A DNA stretch of 64,000 nt from a bacterium (GTDB lineage Bacteria; BMS3Abin14). This document shows, piece after piece, positions 29,934-38,418 of the stretch (position 1 is the first letter of the stretch; each line of letters opens with the position of its first letter). The position numbers were made by a program, and so were the translations under genes. Location: NCBI GenBank assembly GCA_020350725.1, contig CP070719.1, forward strand, positions 292,973 to 356,972, given 5' to 3'. The notes under the pieces are model-generated. The model did no database searches and was not told the origin of the DNA. It saw nothing but the letters and a program-made list of their open reading frames with translations.

Positions 29934-31223
29934 CTATTGAGCCGGTAGTTGGATGAATGCGGCCGACGGCTTGATGAACTGCTGACGAAGGCTCAGGGTG
30001 TAGGCGCCCTGTCCGGGCAGCAGGAGGACGTCTCCCGGCTCGATGCCGTCACCGAAATAGGACCATCCCCAGACGTCGTGTGGGGTGCACAGGGAGCCGG
30101 CGATCAGGCATGGGTGCTCGTCGAGGGAGGGCCGGCTGAGGTTGATCACCGGCACGTAATCTGTCTCGTATCGTTCCCACCCCACGATATTGGTTCCAGC
30201 GTCGGTGACGACGAGGTCGTCGGCCTTCCTGTCGGCCACCCGGATCATGATGTGCATGGCGTCGTTGACGATCCAACGCCCTGGCTCGGCGTAGACTGCC
30301 GGCGATGAGAAGGGAAAGATCCGGTCGTGGAGGGTTCGGGAGATCTCACGGGCGAAGTCCTCGATGGACGCCGCCTCAAGACATCGGCTCCCCCTTACGC
30401 CTGAGCCGCCTCCCGGCGATCGGATCTCCTCGGTCAGGAGCCACTCGCCGTCCCGGGGCCAGTAGCCGCCACCGATGTCAAGAAATTCAAGGCGGTTGCC
30501 ATGCACCGGATCCAGGTCCCTCCAGACATCCCCCAGCCGGCGGATGAAGCCGGTCTGGGCTTCAGGGGTGAGGTTCCAGCTCGTGTGGAACTGAAGGCCC
30601 CTGAGAAGGACGCCGGGACAGCCTGCCGCCCGGTCAAGGAAGGTCTCGAGATCGGAGAGGGGGATGCCGAATTTGCGCCACAGGCCCTCCTCCTGGGTGG
30701 TGAGGCGGACGCCGGAGGTGATCTCGACGGCGGCGCGTTGCGCCGCATTCGTGAGACGGTCCAGCTCCCCGAAACTGTCCATGAGAACCGTCACTCGCTC
30801 ATGGTGGGCAGCGGCCAGATCCAGTTCCTCCTCTGTCTTACCGGGACCGGAGAAGAGGATCCGACGGCACCCTGTCTCCAGGGCCAGCTTGAGCTCCAGA
30901 CCGCTTGAGACATCGAGGCCGAGGCCGGAACGAACCGCTTCGGCCGCCACCTGAGGGTGGTTGTTGCACTTGACGGCGAAGAACGCTTCGAAAGCCGGCA
31001 GACGCTGTCTGAAGGCGTCGAGGAAGGACCGTGCCCTGTCCCTCAGAACAGCAGGCTCGAAGAGGTAGAGGGGTACCGATTCCTGCCGGGCAATCCCCTC
31101 GAGTTCAGCCGCCCGGTCAAGGAATTTCCTTACCAGATCCCTTGCCTTCTTCCGGCAGTCCGCGTCCTCCCGCATGAGACGGGAAAGGTCTGCCGATTGA
31201 CGCCTGTCGGGAGCGCCGGTCAC
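29934..31223 (-). CDS. Fold-type III PLP-dependent decarboxylase (LysA/ODC-like)
   Basis: 429 residues of the diaminopimelate/ornithine decarboxylase family. PLP lysine K85 lies in FFAVKCNNHP. The family glycine loop is FLDIGGGYW, the phosphate-site motif is EPGRWIV, and the acceptor-site Cys is in LCTPHDVWG (LysA and ODC use CESGD or CDSLD, so the substrate differs). It starts with GTG overlapping the ATP-grasp stop (GTGA). It is the last gene of a five-gene operon with a second, pyruvoyl-type decarboxylase, suggesting decarboxylation of a conjugated amino acid rather than of free lysine or ornithine. Confidence 0.85.
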   Translation of the reverse strand: MTGAPDRRQSADLSRLMREDADCRKKARDLVRKFLDRAAELEGIARQESVPLYLFEPAVLRDRARSFLDAFRQRLPAFEAFFAVKCNNHPQVAAEAVRSGLGLDVSSGLELKLALETGCRRILFSGPGKTEEELDLAAAHHERVTVLMDSFGELDRLTNAAQRAAVEITSGVRLTTQEEGLWRKFGIPLSDLETFLDRAAGCPGVLLRGLQFHTSWNLTPEAQTGFIRRLGDVWRDLDPVHGNRLEFLDIGGGYWPRDGEWLLTEEIRSPGGGSGVRGSRCLEAASIEDFAREISRTLHDRIFPFSSPAVYAEPGRWIVNDAMHIMIRVADRKADDLVVTDAGTNIVGWERYETDYVPVINLSRPSLDEHPCLIAGSLCTPHDVWGWSYFGDGIEPGDVLLLPGQGAYTLSLRQQFIKPSAAFIQLPAQ

Positions 31224-32503
31224 GAGGCGATCTCCACCTCGGCAAGCTCCTCGAGGCAGGCGCCCTCTTCAGACAGCCGGCTTCGGTCTCCCGGCCGGAA
31301 GACAACGTGACCCAGAACGCGCGAGAAATAATCGTCGGGCGGCAGGGCCACCCGGTGCCCGGGTTTTCTGTAAAAAACCACCTCGAGGACCTTCGGGTCC
31401 GTCTGGAGCCGGCCGTTGGCGAGATTCTGGAGGAGACCCTCCCGGCGGGCGAACATGCGGAACGCCGCGAGGAATTCATGGGATTCCAGTTTCGGCAGGA
31501 AGATCGTCCGACCCTCGGCCACGTCCAAAGCCAGGCCCAGAGTGTCGATGCCGCTGCTGGCCTTCACCAGCCAGGGAAGACAATCCCCCGCAGGCCGCGC
31601 CGAGACCTCCAGGAAATAGGGGCGTCCCCGGTGGACGATGAAATCGGCCATGAATATCCCCTGTTCGAATCCCATGGAGCTGGCCGAATTTCGCAGCTGG
31701 GCCTCGAGATCTCTCTGGCTGATACCCGTCTCCTCCATGTCGGCGACGTAATAGAGAAGAGCTGTTCCCGTGCCGATCTCAGGTGCCAGGATCTTGCCGG
31801 AAAGACGCACGAGCTGCGCCCGATGGCCGGAGAGGACAAAGTCGCAGCTGAACTCGGGACCTGTGAAGCCCTCCTCAAGGACGACGTCCTGCCTTGGATC
31901 CAGACCCCGGCCCGGGGGGGAAAAGCTCCGGTACATCCGGTCGTCGGTATGGTTGGCCAGCCTCCTGGTGATGATCCGGAACGCCTTTCTGGCGTCTTCC
32001 CGCTTACGGCACCAGAAGACCAGTTCGCTTCCCGATCCGGTAAGAGGTTTGAGGACCAGGGGGAATCCCAGCTTGTCCATGACCGTCTCGAGGTCATCCC
32101 TGTCACGGGCGGTCAGGGATCTCGGGCAGCACACACCCGAGCGAAGCCATGCCCTCTTGGAGTGGAATTTGCTGCGGCTTGTCCGCACAGCCTCCAGTGA
32201 ATGAAAGGGGAGCTTCCAACGATCGGCAAGATCGGAGGCGAGGATCAGGGATTCGTCGTCGTAGCAGGTAAGGCCGCTGAGTTCGATGTCGTAACGGACA
32301 AGATGGCCGGAAAGCGCCTCCGCCGACCCCCGGGCATCCCGAAGGTCGAAGGTGACCTCCTCTTCAGGACCCGGCGTTTCCTCCGACGCCTCAAGACGCA
32401 TCCTCTCATCGGTGAGAAAGAGGGCTCGTCCCGGGTATCTCCGCCGTATGATGTCGACGTAATCGGGAGTCGTGCCGACTACGAGGACCCGTCTTGAGCT
32501 CAT
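31220..32503 (-). CDS. ATP-grasp ligase
   Basis: 427 residues with an ATP-grasp fold: FPLVLKPLTGSGSELVFW (nucleotide-binding lysine), DVVLEEGFTGPEFSCDFVL and the metal-binding FIVHRGRPYFLEVSARPAGD near 310. This is the carboxylate-amine ligase group that makes an amide through an acyl phosphate. AAGGAAA lies upstream of the ATG. It overlaps the PLP decarboxylase by 4 bp and follows the GNAT gene by 12 bp. In context it probably joins an amino acid or amine to a carboxylate to build the pathway intermediate. Confidence 0.85.
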   Translation of the reverse strand: MSSRRVLVVGTTPDYVDIIRRRYPGRALFLTDERMRLEASEETPGPEEEVTFDLRDARGSAEALSGHLVRYDIELSGLTCYDDESLILASDLADRWKLPFHSLEAVRTSRSKFHSKRAWLRSGVCCPRSLTARDRDDLETVMDKLGFPLVLKPLTGSGSELVFWCRKREDARKAFRIITRRLANHTDDRMYRSFSPPGRGLDPRQDVVLEEGFTGPEFSCDFVLSGHRAQLVRLSGKILAPEIGTGTALLYYVADMEETGISQRDLEAQLRNSASSMGFEQGIFMADFIVHRGRPYFLEVSARPAGDCLPWLVKASSGIDTLGLALDVAEGRTIFLPKLESHEFLAAFRMFARREGLLQNLANGRLQTDPKVLEVVFYRKPGHRVALPPDDYFSRVLGHVVFRPGDRSRLSEEGACLEELAEVEIAS

Positions 32504-32515
32504 GGGATTTCCTTT

Positions 32516-33430
32516 TCAGGCTGCCCGAACACCGGCTTCGGCCAGCAGGTAGAGGGGGCGCTCCTGGAGGTGAAACATCTTCTTCCAGTTGAAGTCGCCG
32601 CAGAGGAAATCCACCTCGAGCATCCGCTCCTCGCAGGCCCGCCTCATGTGATGCAGATTGATGAGCTTGGCGATGCCGGGATAGAAGGCGCTGGTGCCCC
32701 CCGCCATGAGCGTGTACACGCCGTTGTAAAGCACCCCGATGTCAACCGCGGCGGTCTCGCCTGCGATGAGGACCGTCGTCACCCGGAGCCAGCCTTGCTG
32801 GTCAAAGAAGCTGACCATGTCCCGGAATCCCCTCCTGAAGCGGGGATCGCTGAAATAGGAGTCATGGCCGAACCGGGAGACGTTCATGGTCACCATGGAA
32901 TCGAAATCCTCGATCCGGTTTTGACGCCAGGAGATCCCCATGGCTTCGATGGCCTCGATCTCACGGCCGATCCTCTTGATCGATTTGCTCGAGAACTGGC
33001 CCATAAACCGATCGAATTCGAATCCGAAATGGGGGGGGCGGAAGAGATAGCCGATTTCGTCCACCGTCCTGTTGGCGGGAAGAGCCGCAGACCTGTTCGA
33101 CAGGTACCTGATGTGAAAGGGGCCGGGGACAGCGGCCAGCAGACGCTCGGGGTCCCTGGCAGTCAGGATGTTCTGCTCCAGCCAGGTCCTGCCCTTCCAC
33201 GTTTCACCGGGGAAAAAGGCGTAGCAGCCCTGTTCCTCCACCCAGGACAGGGGAAGGAGGCCTGAGAGACGGCCGCCGGTTTCCTCTACCAGAAAGTGGA
33301 TAGGTCTGGAGAAATGGCGGTGAAAGGAGGAGCGCACCTCCCAGAGATCGGTGATCATCTCCCGGGGCATGATGGCCTCCCAGAGGCTCCTGGCCTCCTC
33401 CAGGTCCCGGACCACCCTGAGGCCGTCCAT
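32516..33430 (-). CDS. GNAT / FemAB-like transferase
   Basis: 304 residues resembling the BioF2-like/Acetyltransf_6 (FemAB-related) GNAT group: FMGQFSSKSIKRIGREI in the middle, then DIGVLYNGVYTLMAGGTSAFYPGIAKLINLHHM, the typical GNAT beta-bulge and cofactor helix. It would transfer an acyl or aminoacyl group to an amine. GGAGG precedes the ATG by 6 nt. It begins 2 bp after the AdoMet-decarboxylase-like stop, so it is tightly co-translated. The donor is unknown (acyl-CoA or aminoacyl-tRNA). Confidence 0.78.
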   Translation of the reverse strand: MDGLRVVRDLEEARSLWEAIMPREMITDLWEVRSSFHRHFSRPIHFLVEETGGRLSGLLPLSWVEEQGCYAFFPGETWKGRTWLEQNILTARDPERLLAAVPGPFHIRYLSNRSAALPANRTVDEIGYLFRPPHFGFEFDRFMGQFSSKSIKRIGREIEAIEAMGISWRQNRIEDFDSMVTMNVSRFGHDSYFSDPRFRRGFRDMVSFFDQQGWLRVTTVLIAGETAAVDIGVLYNGVYTLMAGGTSAFYPGIAKLINLHHMRRACEERMLEVDFLCGDFNWKKMFHLQERPLYLLAEAGVRAA

Positions 33431-33432
33431 CC

Positions 33433-33837
33433 CTACCTCCGGAAGGTGATGCTGGTTTCCACCCTCGACCCGCCGAAGTAACGGCGCGCGAATTCGGCCA
33501 CGATCTCCGGGTCGTAAGGCTTACAGCTGAACACGTCCAGGTAGGTCGTGTTGGTGAGGTTGGCGAAGTGAGCCGAGATGAGGGAGGTTTCGATGAGCTG
33601 GACCATGGAGAAGCCGGCTACCCTCTCGTCCTCCCCGAAGTGGATCACCTGCGTCTCGCCGAACCGTTTCATCTCGATGAGGTCGCACAGTTGAACAACG
33701 AACCGGCGGATGGCGTCCGCGTCCCGAATGGTATCCGGGCAGCAGTCGTAGATGTCGATGGCCGTGGCAATGCCCCAAACGTTCTCAGCGGCGGCGCGCT
33801 CCGGCACGCTCATGGGTACGGGCTGAATTCCCATCAT
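33433..33837 (-). CDS. AdoMet-decarboxylase-like pyruvoyl enzyme
   Basis: 134 residues of the prokaryotic SpeH/SpeD fold. Ser85 (in ETSLISAH), His90 and Cys105 (VFSCKPYDP) keep the S-x4-H-x14-C spacing of Thermotoga AdoMet decarboxylase (Ser63/His68/Cys83), so self-cleavage to a pyruvoyl group is expected. But the residue before the Ser is Thr instead of Glu, and the one after is Leu instead of His. The T-S-x-x-x-x-H pattern is typical of AdoMetDC homologues that have changed substrate (some are now ornithine or arginine decarboxylases). AAGGAGG lies upstream. No spermidine synthase is adjacent. Confidence 0.8.
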   Translation of the reverse strand: MMGIQPVPMSVPERAAAENVWGIATAIDIYDCCPDTIRDADAIRRFVVQLCDLIEMKRFGETQVIHFGEDERVAGFSMVQLIETSLISAHFANLTNTTYLDVFSCKPYDPEIVAEFARRYFGGSRVETSITFRR

Positions 33838-33911
33838 CTTATTTTTCCTCCTTTCTTGCCTTTAGGTGGCCTGTGGCCTTGCCGCTGAGATGGCGTTGGG
33901 GCTGGTCACCG

Positions 33912-34568
33912 CTAGGTTTCCTCCTGACGGAGGGCTCCGTTGATGAACCGCGCCATGCTGCTCACCAGGACCCCCCTCAGGGACTGCAGATTAGCGTCCA
34001 CGTCATCGTCCTCCGAGGCGATGACGGCGAACGAGTAGTAGCCGGAAAGAAAACCCGCCACCGCGCAGCCCATGCGGCGCAGAAGGGGTTTGTCGAGACG
34101 CTGTTTGACCACTGCGTCCACCAGTGCCTCGATGGACTCCAGGTATTCGATGAAGGGCAGCTCCAGGCCGGAATAGCCCTCCTTGAGCTTCAGGTCCGCA
34201 CGGCCCTGATAGTAGAGGACAAACTCCTCCCATCGTGTGCTGAAGAAATCGATGTGAACCTGGATGATGGATTCCAGCAGGGACGTCAGGTCGTCAGCCC
34301 CGGTGCATCGCTTCTCCATGAGCGAGGTCAGCTCTTCAAGGACCTGCCGGATCAGGTCGGCGATGATCTCGTTCTTGTCGGAAAAGTGGTAGTAGAAGGT
34401 TCCCTTCCCCACGTCCGCCCGCTGGGTGATCTCGTCGATCGTGGTCAGATCGATCCCCTTCTCGGCGAACAGCTCCCTCGCCGCAATGAGGAGCCGGCGG
34501 CGGGTGGCACGGACCCTTCTGGTCTGGCGGGTGGCCTGTTCCCTGCGGACATTATCCACACCGGTCAT
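33912..34568 (-). CDS. TetR-family repressor, first gene of the decarboxylase/ATP-grasp operon
   Basis: 218 residues. Helix-turn-helix at about 22-68 (RRRLLIAARELFAEKGIDLTTIDEI, ADVGKGTFYYHFSDKNEI), then an all-helical ligand domain with a typical FYYQGRADLKLKEGY-like segment. Two palindromic sites (34594-34605 and 34611-34624) lie 25-55 bp upstream. The next gene in the same direction begins 74 bp downstream. It most likely represses the operon it heads. Confidence 0.85.
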   Translation of the reverse strand: MTGVDNVRREQATRQTRRVRATRRRLLIAARELFAEKGIDLTTIDEITQRADVGKGTFYYHFSDKNEIIADLIRQVLEELTSLMEKRCTGADDLTSLLESIIQVHIDFFSTRWEEFVLYYQGRADLKLKEGYSGLELPFIEYLESIEALVDAVVKQRLDKPLLRRMGCAVAGFLSGYYSFAVIASEDDDVDANLQSLRGVLVSSMARFINGALRQEET

Positions 34569-34593
34569 GATGATTTTTTCCTCCCATTTTTTC

Positions 34594-34624
34594 GACTAGA
34601 TAGTCAATTTTGACCATTTAGTCA
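34594..34624. promoter_or_regulatory. Paired TetR operators of the decarboxylase operon
   Basis: GACTAGATAGTC (34594-34605) and TGACCATTTAGTCA (34611-34624), related TGACTA-N-TAGTCA palindromes. On the minus strand they overlap TTGACT-type -35 sequence, the usual arrangement for autorepression by a TetR dimer. Confidence 0.7.
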
Positions 34625-34929: not shown

Positions 34930-36954
34930 CTATCCCCCGTCCTCCTCCAGCACGAACAGCAGCTGGTTCTCGATCACCGGTTCGTTCAGGCCGATGCAGA
35001 TCTCGGCTATCCGACCGTTGATAGGGGCGGCGATGACGTTTTCCATCTTCATCGCCTCGATGTTGGCGATCTCCTCCCCTTCGTGGACGATGTCTCCCAC
35101 GGCGATATCACCGCGCTTGGGATTGCCCATCCGCCACACGGAGCCGGTGATGGGTGAGCCGACCTCGTTGGTGGCCTTGGCCATGCGGATCTCGGCCTTG
35201 ACCACCCGGGGCGTCTCCACCGTAAACACCTTGGCCTGGTTGTTGATCCTCAGGACCACCGGGACGTAGCCGTCGTACTCGTCGCCCACCGAGACCATCT
35301 CGACGGTATGGGGCTTGTCTCTCATCTGAAAGTCCACCTTGTCGCCGGGGCGGGGGAGCCCGGAGTGCCACACGTTGGTGGGCAGGACGATGGAGGATTC
35401 CCCGTACTCCTCCCGAAACTCGATCATCTCCACCGTGTCCTTGGGGTGCATGAGAAAGAGGATGAACTCCTCCTCGGAGGGATGCCAGCCCAGCTTCGCG
35501 GCAAGATCCTCCCTCAGGCCGTCAAGATCCTCATCCTCCAGGGCGTCGAGGGGAGAGTCCCCGATCCTCCTGGCCAGATTCTCCTGCCATTGATCTCCGA
35601 ACGCGCTCTGGTAGACCCAGTCGGCCGGCCATCCGGCAGGAAGCCTGCCGTACCCTCCCAGGATAAGGTTCTTGAAATCCCCCGGCGCGGTGACGAAGAA
35701 CTCCATGAGCTCCTCCCTCTCCTCGGGGGCCAGCCTGTCCAGGTCCTGGTCGACTTCCTCGGTGAACTTCTTCAGGAGGGCGATGAGGCGGTTGACGCCT
35801 GTTAAACCGAACTCTTTGGCGTAGCGGTTCACGGTGCCGCTGCAGGTGACCCAGGTCATCTGGCTGCCGGGGGTGACGTCAAAGTAGTGGACGATTCGGT
35901 TGTACAGGGACATCACCTGCAGGATCTGGGGCATAAGGTGGAGAAAACCGCCCCTCTCGGCCTGCTCGAAGGAACTGGGAAAGGCCCCTCCGGGCATCCT
36001 GTGCTGGACGACGTTATGATCGAAGCCCTTGAAAGGCGACTCGGCCCAGCCGTATTGGCGCACCCAGTCCCGGGCCTTCTGGACGGCGGCCTCCGCCTCA
36101 GGGCGGTTCAGGAGCACCGGGATCCCGGCCTCCTCGAGATAGGCGTGGAGAGAGAGTATAGGAGCCTGACCGTAGAATCGGGTTAAAGAGTCCTCCTGGG
36201 CGTCCAGGAGTTTGGCGCCGGCCTGGGCGGCAGCCAGCAGGGCGGGAAGGGCCAGCCCGTCCGTCGAGTGGCGGTGGTACTGAACCACTGCCTCCGGGTA
36301 CTTCTGCAGGATGGCGTCAACCAGCTCCCGGATCCTCTCCGGACTCCCCACTCCCGCCATGTCCTTGATGCAGAGGACGACCTCCTCCACGCCGCCGCAC
36401 AGGTCAACCATGTCGTCGACGACTCCGAGGTAATAGTCGTTGGTCGCCCAGTCCGCCTGGGTAAAGGAAACAGCCGGTTCGAACAGGAGGCCTCTTTCCA
36501 TGACCACCTCGCAGATGGTACGCATATTGCGGACGTCGTTGAGAAAGGAGAAGCACCTCCAGACATCGATGTCCACCTTGGACACCACATATTCGATGAC
36601 GTTCCGGGGGTAGGGCCGGTACCCCCACAGGCTGGTCTCGCGGATCAGGGTCTGAAGGAGAACGCTGGGCATTCTCTCACGAAGGATAGCCGTCTCCTCA
36701 AAGGGACTCTCCCGGCGGTTGAGGATCCCCACGTGCCAGCGTGCCCCTCCGTGGACCTCTGCGGAAAAAAGGTTCATCCGGTCGTAGTGGGGAGCCAGGG
36801 TGGCCTGGTCGTGGATCCGGAGCCGGTTCTTGAAGTCCGACTGGCCGGCGTCCCTCATTCCCGTGGAGGTGATGGCTACCCCCGGCAGGGCTCTTACCTT
36901 CCTGATGATCTCCGCAGGGGTCATGCCTGGTCTGAAAACTGTCCGATCACTCAT
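34930..36954 (-). CDS. Biotin-dependent carboxyltransferase subunit (PycB/OadA-like)
   Basis: 674 residues: HMGL-like carboxyltransferase barrel with TSTGMRDAGQSDF at about 30 (metal-binding Asp in RDAxQS), VVLCIKDMAGVGSP (the carbamylated-lysine motif), YHRHSTDG metal ligands and MPGGAFPSSFEQAERGG. A C-terminal biotinyl domain ends with NIEAMKMENV. It is the partner of the biotin carboxylase encoded 9 bp upstream. The likely reaction is pyruvate to oxaloacetate. The N-terminal region (FKNRLRIHDQATLAPHYDRM) diverges from canonical pyruvate carboxylase, so another 2-oxo acid is possible. Confidence 0.85.
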   Translation of the reverse strand: MSDRTVFRPGMTPAEIIRKVRALPGVAITSTGMRDAGQSDFKNRLRIHDQATLAPHYDRMNLFSAEVHGGARWHVGILNRRESPFEETAILRERMPSVLLQTLIRETSLWGYRPYPRNVIEYVVSKVDIDVWRCFSFLNDVRNMRTICEVVMERGLLFEPAVSFTQADWATNDYYLGVVDDMVDLCGGVEEVVLCIKDMAGVGSPERIRELVDAILQKYPEAVVQYHRHSTDGLALPALLAAAQAGAKLLDAQEDSLTRFYGQAPILSLHAYLEEAGIPVLLNRPEAEAAVQKARDWVRQYGWAESPFKGFDHNVVQHRMPGGAFPSSFEQAERGGFLHLMPQILQVMSLYNRIVHYFDVTPGSQMTWVTCSGTVNRYAKEFGLTGVNRLIALLKKFTEEVDQDLDRLAPEEREELMEFFVTAPGDFKNLILGGYGRLPAGWPADWVYQSAFGDQWQENLARRIGDSPLDALEDEDLDGLREDLAAKLGWHPSEEEFILFLMHPKDTVEMIEFREEYGESSIVLPTNVWHSGLPRPGDKVDFQMRDKPHTVEMVSVGDEYDGYVPVVLRINNQAKVFTVETPRVVKAEIRMAKATNEVGSPITGSVWRMGNPKRGDIAVGDIVHEGEEIANIEAMKMENVIAAPINGRIAEICIGLNEPVIENQLLFVLEEDGG

Positions 36955-36963
36955 GATATGTCC

Positions 36964-38418
36964 TTATATCCAGGACCGCGGTCCCAGGGCTGAAACCTCC
37001 GCCAGGTATTTGGCGATCTTGAGCAGCTCGTCCTCAGTGCTTGGTTCCCGGAAGGCCTTGACCAGGTCCTGGAGGTTGTCGTCGATGAACCGGGTGGAAA
37101 AATCCCCGGCCCGGAAGGCCGGGTGGCGGATGATGCTCATGAGAAGGGGTTTGAGAGTCTTGACCCCTTCCACCCTCAGGCTGCGTCCCAAAGCCCGGTC
37201 CATGACGTTGAGGGCATCCTCGCGGTTATGGCCGGCGCTCATGATGAGCATGAGCAGGGAGTCGTAATAGGGCGGGACCGAGGCACCGTGGTATACGCCG
37301 GTGGCGATCCTCAGGTTGGGCCCGTCGGGTGTCCGCAGGCGGGTGATCGTGCCGAAGGAGGGTCCGAAGGTCTCCGGATCCTCGGCATTGAGCCTGACCT
37401 CCATGGCCCACCGGTTGGGTTTGACGTCGTCCTGTGAAAACCCCAGGGGTTTGCCCTCGGCCACGTCCAGCATGAGGCCCACCAGATCGTATCCGGTGGT
37501 CAGTTCCGTGAGGCCGTGCTCCACCTGCAGCCTGGTGTTGACCTCAAGGAAATAGTAACTGCCCGCACTCTGGTCGAAGATGAACTCCACAGTCCCCGCG
37601 GACTGGTAGTCGATCTCCCTCATCAGGGCAACCGCCTTGCCGCAGATCTCCTGCCGGAGGTCCTCGCTCAGGGACGGAGAGGGCGATTCCTCGATGACCT
37701 TCTGGTTGCGCCTCTGAATGCTGCATTCCCTCTCGTAGAGGTGAACGACGTTCCCATGCTGGTCGCCCAGGATCTGGACCTCAATGTGGCGGGCATTCTG
37801 GATGAACTTCTCCAGGATGAGCGTGCCGCTCCCGAAGGCCTTTTCGGCCTCTGAGCTTGCCTGGGACAGAGCCTGTTCGAGATCCTTCGCCCGGTCCACC
37901 CGGACGAGGCCCCGCCCCCCTCCACCCGAGGCGGCCTTGATCATAATGGGGTATTCGATGCCGGCTTTTCTGATCCAGTCCAGGGCTTCTTCTGAGGTGG
38001 TGACATTCTCCCTCCCGGGGATAGTGGGTACGCCTGCTCTCTGGGCCATCTGCCTGGCATGGGCCTTGTCACCCATACTGCGGATCACACCGGGAGGTGG
38101 ACCCACCCAGATGAGGCCTTCGTCCTGGACCATCTGGGCGAAATCACCGTTCTCGGCCAGAAATCCCCAGCCGGGATGAATGGCATCGGACCCCGTCTCG
38201 AAGGCTGCCCGCAGGACGTTCTCCATGTTCAGGTAGGACTCGGCGGGAGGTGCTTCACCGATGTGCACCGCCCTGTCTGCCATGACCACGTGGTGTCCCA
38301 GGCGGTCCGGCGTGCTGTAGACAGCGGTGGTTGGGATCTTCCTGTCGCGGCAGGTATGCATGACCCTGACCGCCGAAACTCCCCGGTTGGCCACTAGAAG
38401 CCGTTCGATTTTCTTCAC
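36964..38418 (-). CDS. Biotin carboxylase subunit (PycA/AccC-like)
   Basis: 484 residues: KIERLLVANRG start, ATP-grasp core with IMIKAASGGGGRGLVRV, YERECSIQRRNQKVIEESP and FLEVNTRLQVEHGLTEL, all canonical. It carboxylates the biotin on the partner carboxyltransferase subunit using ATP and bicarbonate. The usual IARRI motif at the N-terminus is replaced by GVSAVRV, as also seen in some pyruvate carboxylase subunits. The operon is two genes plus a strong terminator. The 380 bp upstream (38419-38797) holds no supported gene. Confidence 0.88.
   Translation of the reverse strand: MKKIERLLVANRGVSAVRVMHTCRDRKIPTTAVYSTPDRLGHHVVMADRAVHIGEAPPAESYLNMENVLRAAFETGSDAIHPGWGFLAENGDFAQMVQDEGLIWVGPPPGVIRSMGDKAHARQMAQRAGVPTIPGRENVTTSEEALDWIRKAGIEYPIMIKAASGGGGRGLVRVDRAKDLEQALSQASSEAEKAFGSGTLILEKFIQNARHIEVQILGDQHGNVVHLYERECSIQRRNQKVIEESPSPSLSEDLRQEICGKAVALMREIDYQSAGTVEFIFDQSAGSYYFLEVNTRLQVEHGLTELTTGYDLVGLMLDVAEGKPLGFSQDDVKPNRWAMEVRLNAEDPETFGPSFGTITRLRTPDGPNLRIATGVYHGASVPPYYDSLLMLIMSAGHNREDALNVMDRALGRSLRVEGVKTLKPLLMSIIRHPAFRAGDFSTRFIDDNLQDLVKAFREPSTEDELLKIAKYLAEVSALGPRSWI

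Follow-up and report, generated by a model that had tools for sequence, protein, structure and literature searches.

A widespread four-enzyme operon with a predicted SpeDC-type ornithine decarboxylase: a candidate pathway to putrescine-derived amides

The stretch of DNA analyzed here (64,000 nucleotides of contig CP070719.1, assembly GCA_020350725.1; hereafter the window) belongs to a complete 2.78-Mb bacterial genome and carries a compact operon on its minus strand. The genes are transcribed in the order TetR-family regulator, homolog of S-adenosylmethionine decarboxylase (AdoMetDC), GNAT protein, ATP-grasp ligase, and pyridoxal 5'-phosphate (PLP) decarboxylase (34624-29934). The five proteins were assigned to families by Pfam and NCBIfam profile matches, and the features of the locus, in window coordinates, are as follows:

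34594-34605 and 34612-34623, no strand assigned: two putative operator palindromes GAC-N6-GTC, 26-55 bp before the TetR start
33912..34568, minus strand: TetR-family regulator, operon gene 1 (TetR_N 5e-16)
33433..33837, minus strand: SpeDC-type pyruvoyl enzyme (AdoMetDC homolog, 134 aa), predicted L-ornithine decarboxylase (AdoMet_dc 1e-22)
32516..33430, minus strand: tandem-GNAT protein, 304 aa, with a Fem-like fold, predicted aminoacyl transferase (Acetyltransf_6 1e-21)
31220..32503, minus strand: ATP-grasp amide ligase, 427 aa (ATP-grasp_4/RimK 4e-6 and 3e-5)
29934..31223, minus strand: fold-III (alanine racemase fold) PLP decarboxylase, 429 aa (Orn_Arg_deC_N 2e-28)

An earlier note on this DNA described five genes in one direction behind paired palindromes, and both observations are borne out. 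The TetR gene is followed by a gap of 74 bp, the last four genes are spaced by 2 bp, 12 bp, and a 4-bp overlap, and the palindromes (GACTAGATAGTC at 34594-34605 and GACCATTTAGTC at 34612-34623) are real and lie 18 bp apart.

A scan of ~85,000 species genomes identified 183 relatives of the AdoMetDC-like protein, 80 of which were kept; because the scan patterns were derived from the query, this sample is biased toward close relatives. At 61 of the 67 loci with enough downstream DNA to be testable, the genes for the GNAT protein, the ATP-grasp ligase, and the PLP decarboxylase follow the SpeDC-like gene in identical order, which is far above chance expectation. The comparison of gene order across genomes that the earlier note had proposed therefore finds the four-enzyme order kept, and in at least nine phyla (Thermodesulfobacteriota, Planctomycetota, Deferribacterota, Nitrospirota, Zixibacteria, Krumholzibacteriota, Sumerlaeota, Omnitrophota, Armatimonadota, and others). 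Carriers are mostly uncultured, largely anaerobic bacteria, the majority represented by metagenome bins; cultured carriers are found in Desulfobacter, Desulfospira, Desulfoluna, Desulfamplus, and Dethiosulfatarculus. Among 296 genomes of the phylum that includes Desulfamplus, 11 have a strong match to the GNAT protein and 14 a strong match to the SpeDC family, with 10 containing both (~0.5 expected). A rapidly built tree of the four concatenated proteins recovers two main groups, largely by regulator type, within which phyla are mixed. This mixing suggests transfer between phyla, although bin errors or paralogs could likewise produce it. Outside its own family, the source genome has no rank below domain in common with the searched relatives, and its lineage is therefore sparsely sampled.

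The AdoMetDC-like protein is predicted from its sequence to be a SpeDC-type L-ornithine decarboxylase. Residues S85 (the predicted pyruvoyl serine), H90, and C105 (predicted catalytic), equivalent to T. maritima S63, H68, and C83, are at least 95% conserved across 81 sequences, as are Q80, T84, F91, and Y99; the true SpeD of the same genome has V, E, T, and A at these last four columns. Li et al. (2023; PMC10407285) describe a Gln, a Thr, a Phe, and a Tyr in this part of the protein as diagnostic for SpeDC ornithine decarboxylases, and the operon residues match that diagnosis, with columns equated by position and conservation. In a tree whose references were fusion SpeDC halves and SpeD, the operon proteins join the C-terminal halves of SpeD-SpeDC fusions (support 95/89) and are separate from true SpeD (support 100/99). 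Mutants of the Desulfotignum SpeD-SpeDC fusion show that its C-terminal half is an ornithine decarboxylase. Identity of the operon protein is 56% to a Sumerlaeota fusion half and ~20% to true SpeD. Assignment as a class 1b AdoMetDC (SpeD) was rejected: the protein scores 28 bits against a curated TIGR03330 cut-off of 75.65, and HFANL replaces the conserved HTWPE (TWPE segment). The earlier suggestion of an AdoMetDC fold that has lost its AdoMet specificity thus holds for a repurposed enzyme, and is sharpened here to a predicted ornithine decarboxylase.

SpeDC enzymes usually serve putrescine synthesis (PMC10407285), and the operon SpeDC is the sole PF02675 gene in 9 of 18 operon genomes. Both points favor an ordinary role in polyamine supply, in which the operon would provide a second putrescine or spermidine route and its other genes would modify or store polyamines by simple acetylation. 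However, the same genome has a complete, separate spermidine route: speD, pyruvoyl arginine decarboxylase (PvlArgDC), speE, and an agmatinase-type speB form one cluster of overlapping genes (G000:C1 ~1352340-1354867; L001, L089) 1 Mb from the operon, which is therefore additional to ordinary polyamine synthesis. The operon also lacks speE, casdh/casdc, and hss; its PLP enzyme is far from carboxynorspermidine decarboxylase (CANSDC), as the profile values below indicate; and polyamine supply would leave two amide-forming enzymes unexplained. We consider this role improbable. Because the full cluster is present, the idea that the SpeDC-like gene fills a gap in the genome's spermidine or putrescine synthesis was also rejected. 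The earlier note had argued from the absence of speE and lysine genes nearby; no speE is near, but the polyamine cluster exists at a distance, and a separate lysA-type gene (222.8 bits) is found elsewhere in the genome. The PLP gene itself is excluded as lysA (it scores 127 bits, below the lysA cut-off of 298, and the stronger lysA-type match is elsewhere). A spermidine synthase elsewhere had been named as one half of a finding that would count against the proposal of an unusual pathway. The speE gene is indeed present, but the AdoMetDC that serves it is a separate, true one, and the proposal therefore stands.

The PLP enzyme retains the PLP lysine, glycine loop, EPGR, and Cys/Asp signatures. 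By profile E-values (FslC 3e-39, diaminopimelate decarboxylase [DapDC] 3e-36, BtrK 2e-35, ornithine decarboxylase 2e-25, CANSDC 5e-9), its sequence places it nearer the conjugate-type decarboxylases and DapDC than ornithine decarboxylase, arginine decarboxylase, or CANSDC; the same comparison (5e-9 vs. 3e-39 for FslC) rules out a carboxyspermidine decarboxylase. Its nearest solved relatives are BtrK, DapDC, and FslC/FigC, with BtrK the best in a single-sequence (phmmer) search, and LCTP-D and Y--(D/E)Y-PV segments are common to BtrK and the operon protein. In PMC7857480, FigC, SbnH, AcsE, MccE, and BtrK fall together with DapDC in a single clade. Those five enzymes act on amino acids joined to another group. 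That FslC/FigC (N-citrylornithine decarboxylase) is the top profile match, and falls in the same clade as BtrK (PMC7857480), would fit a metal-binding or citrate-type conjugate, in which the PLP enzyme decarboxylates Ndelta-acylated ornithine or a similar diamino acid and the GNAT protein uses acyl-CoA. However, if acylation preceded the decarboxylation of ornithine, there would be no need for SpeDC, and the GNAT fold favors Fem-type enzymes. Additionally, regulators are the only further gene families that recur widely next to the operon across the relatives' loci, so neither a synthetase of the NRPS-independent siderophore kind (NIS; IucA/IucC-type) nor a receptor is conserved there. A conjugate of this kind appears unlikely, if less so than simple polyamine supply.

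Structural models place the two remaining enzymes among amide-forming families. The ATP-grasp model (predicted local distance difference test [pLDDT] 93.5) is nearest in fold to the L-amino acid ligase BL00235 (3vot; Z 36.3, root-mean-square deviation 3.0, 396 residues aligned), with the next folds at Z 30.5 (BacD), and an amide ligase is predicted. The GNAT model (pLDDT 92.5) finds its best folds in Sba18/Sbb17, FemX, FemA, and MprF, at Z 17.7 to about 14 (Sba18 17.7, FemX 17, MprF 15), with other tandem GNATs, mycothiol synthase included, at 13.6 or below. By modeled fold, the protein is thus closest to the aminoacyl-tRNA-dependent Fem/MprF/streptothricin transferases. The GNAT transferase of the earlier note is therefore retained as to family, but its nearest fold is that of Fem-like transferases, not ordinary acetyltransferases. 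W282-K283 is invariant, K283 across 73 sequences, and K283 is a candidate for the catalytic lysine that would correspond to FemXWv K305. Searches of PDB sequences with the GNAT and SpeD-like profiles returned chance matches only. Double-GNAT enzymes of this kind transfer amino acids from tRNA onto small-molecule acceptors in the BD-12, dehydrophos, and related pathways (PMC12945691). FemX, FemA, and MprF modify peptidoglycan precursors or lipids, and their presence among the best folds could indicate macromolecule modification, with the ligase and the Fem/MprF-like enzyme loading an amine or amino acid onto a lipid, cell-wall precursor, or protein. The two top-scoring folds, Sba18 and Sbb17, act on a small molecule, however, and no substrate-protein gene is conserved beside the operon; we give this explanation the least weight of those considered.

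Control of the operon differs between the two main branches. TetR orthologs, 47-86% identical, precede it at 17 other loci. The GAC-N6-GTC motif occurs at 45 sites in 19 TetR upstream regions of relatives, compared with 0.8 in letter shuffles (maximum 5 in 1000 shuffles), and the distance from one site to the next is 18 bp in 22 cases and 36 bp in four. In the second main branch, TetR is replaced by a divergent sigma-54 activator, and a -24/-12 promoter with at most two mismatches precedes SpeDC at 31 of the 43 sigma-54-activator loci (~0.6 expected). Near the activator in Desulfobacter-type loci is a ~200-aa family with a conserved N-terminal Cys motif (L038:4077-4700, L045:5331-5927, L057:4005-4607, L070:3884-4486), for which no Pfam match was found.

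Taken as a whole, the operon has about an even chance of being a self-contained pathway to a putrescine-derived amide metabolite, in which ornithine is converted to putrescine and amino acids are then attached. SpeDC would cleave itself to form its pyruvoyl group and convert L-ornithine to putrescine, a step well supported by sequence; the ATP-grasp ligase would couple an amino acid to the amine via an acyl phosphate; the Fem-like tandem-GNAT enzyme would add a further aminoacyl group, probably from aminoacyl-tRNA; and the BtrK/FslC-like PLP enzyme would decarboxylate the amino acid end of the conjugate, yielding a further amine. The likeliest product is a small aminoacyl- or peptidyl-polyamine, specifically an aminoacyl- or peptidyl-putrescine. 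TetR would repress its own operon via the 18-bp-phased operator array, and we infer that a ligand, perhaps the product, releases it. The conjugated amine or peptide-like product under a ligand-responsive TetR that the earlier note envisaged is probably right in outline, with its enzyme assignments corrected.

Several points weigh against this putrescine-amide pathway. Its substrates and product are predictions. A fold match is no proof of tRNA use, and acyl-CoA is a possible substrate of Acetyltransf_6 proteins. L-amino acid ligases act through alpha-carboxyl groups, whereas the BtrK precedent calls for an amino acid linked by its side chain, which makes the step order proposed above tentative. 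Across the relatives' loci, the operon is not accompanied by any conserved transporter or export gene. Natural variants also occur: G199 has a three-gene form and no SpeDC match in its genome; L052 has the other operon genes but no ATP-grasp gene, and that family is missing from its genome altogether; SpeDC is found without the other operon genes at L059, L074, L116, and L117; and G218 and G336 have SpeDC alone, judged by missing GNAT and ATP-grasp families. A further variant, G354, speaks for the pathway: its TetR, GNAT, ATP-grasp, and PLP genes lie together but have lost their own SpeDC; an apparent SpeDC start remnant stands in front of the GNAT gene, and an unlinked SpeDC (L021) occurs elsewhere in the genome. 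Because of these forms without SpeDC, without ATP-grasp, or with SpeDC alone, the four-enzyme set is cohesive but not absolute.

Some neighboring genes and unusual copies were also observed. Upstream of the operon in the window, on the same strand, are pyruvate/oxaloacetate carboxylase-type genes (34930-38418), the nearer of which is absent beside the operon in the relatives' loci. One genome (contig CP070689.1) has two operon copies ~22 kb apart (L008 and L011); in the L008 copy, the ATP-grasp gene is shortened and the PLP decarboxylase gene absent. Near the L052 operon are genes for a RimK-like ATP-grasp protein, a GCS2 ligase, and a C39-like protein (L052:11955-15389). C39-like papain-fold proteins adjoin the operon at four other loci (L133:8974-9711, L009:3200-3967, L043:11867-12592, L081:4535-5281); as they have no BtrH family match, they were ruled out as BtrH-type acyltransferases. 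A SpeDC-type gene also lies amid phage-like genes (L105:3187-3531), and phage relatives were dismissed as distant matches only (at most 34% identity).

All four enzyme families are already known. In the butirosin side-chain pathway, BtrJ is an ATP-grasp ligase and BtrK a decarboxylase, and the operon likewise holds an ATP-grasp ligase together with a BtrK-like PLP decarboxylase; unlike that pathway, it contains SpeDC and a Fem-like transferase, and no acyl carrier protein or aminoglycoside genes. With the Francisella rhizoferrin pathway (FigA/FigC), it has in common a PLP enzyme related to N-citrylornithine decarboxylase and putrescine in the product, here a predicted one; unlike that pathway, it has no NIS synthetase, and putrescine is predicted to be made first, by SpeDC. 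The GNAT protein resembles Sba18, Sbb17, Orf11 (BD-12/streptothricin-type), and FemX in its double-GNAT fold (Z 17 over 260-270 residues), whereas identity to these aminoacyl-tRNA-dependent enzymes is ~11%, and tRNA use is predicted from the fold. The pyruvoyl enzyme agrees with SpeDC, as described in PMC10407285, in the S63/H68/C83-equivalent residues, the Gln/Thr/Phe/Tyr set, and its clade with fusion SpeDC halves. However, the published SpeDC genes lie beside speD/speE, casdh/casdc, or hss, whereas in the operon SpeDC is accompanied by ligase, Fem-like transferase, and conjugate-type decarboxylase genes. No description of the operon or its product turned up in the literature searched; the survey of ATP-grasp/acetyltransferase amidoligase clusters by Iyer et al. 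(2009) fell outside that search, and an earlier mention is possible. Tentatively, the operon may define an undescribed class of peptidyl-polyamines widespread in anaerobes. In their synthesis, putrescine supplied by a pyruvoyl enzyme would be extended by two amide-forming enzymes, one dependent on ATP and the other on tRNA, before a conjugate decarboxylase completes the product, and the pathway would be under either of two interchangeable controls, a TetR array or sigma-54.

The operon lends itself to direct testing: its genes together amount to ~3.9 kb, carriers are available in culture, and its regulators indicate how expression could be turned on. It represents a compact four-enzyme pathway common to sulfate reducers, Deferribacterota, Planctomycetota, and several uncultured phyla. 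If the proposed pathway is correct, SpeDC would gain a function beyond supplying polyamines, and one small operon would combine two distinct modes of amide-bond formation.

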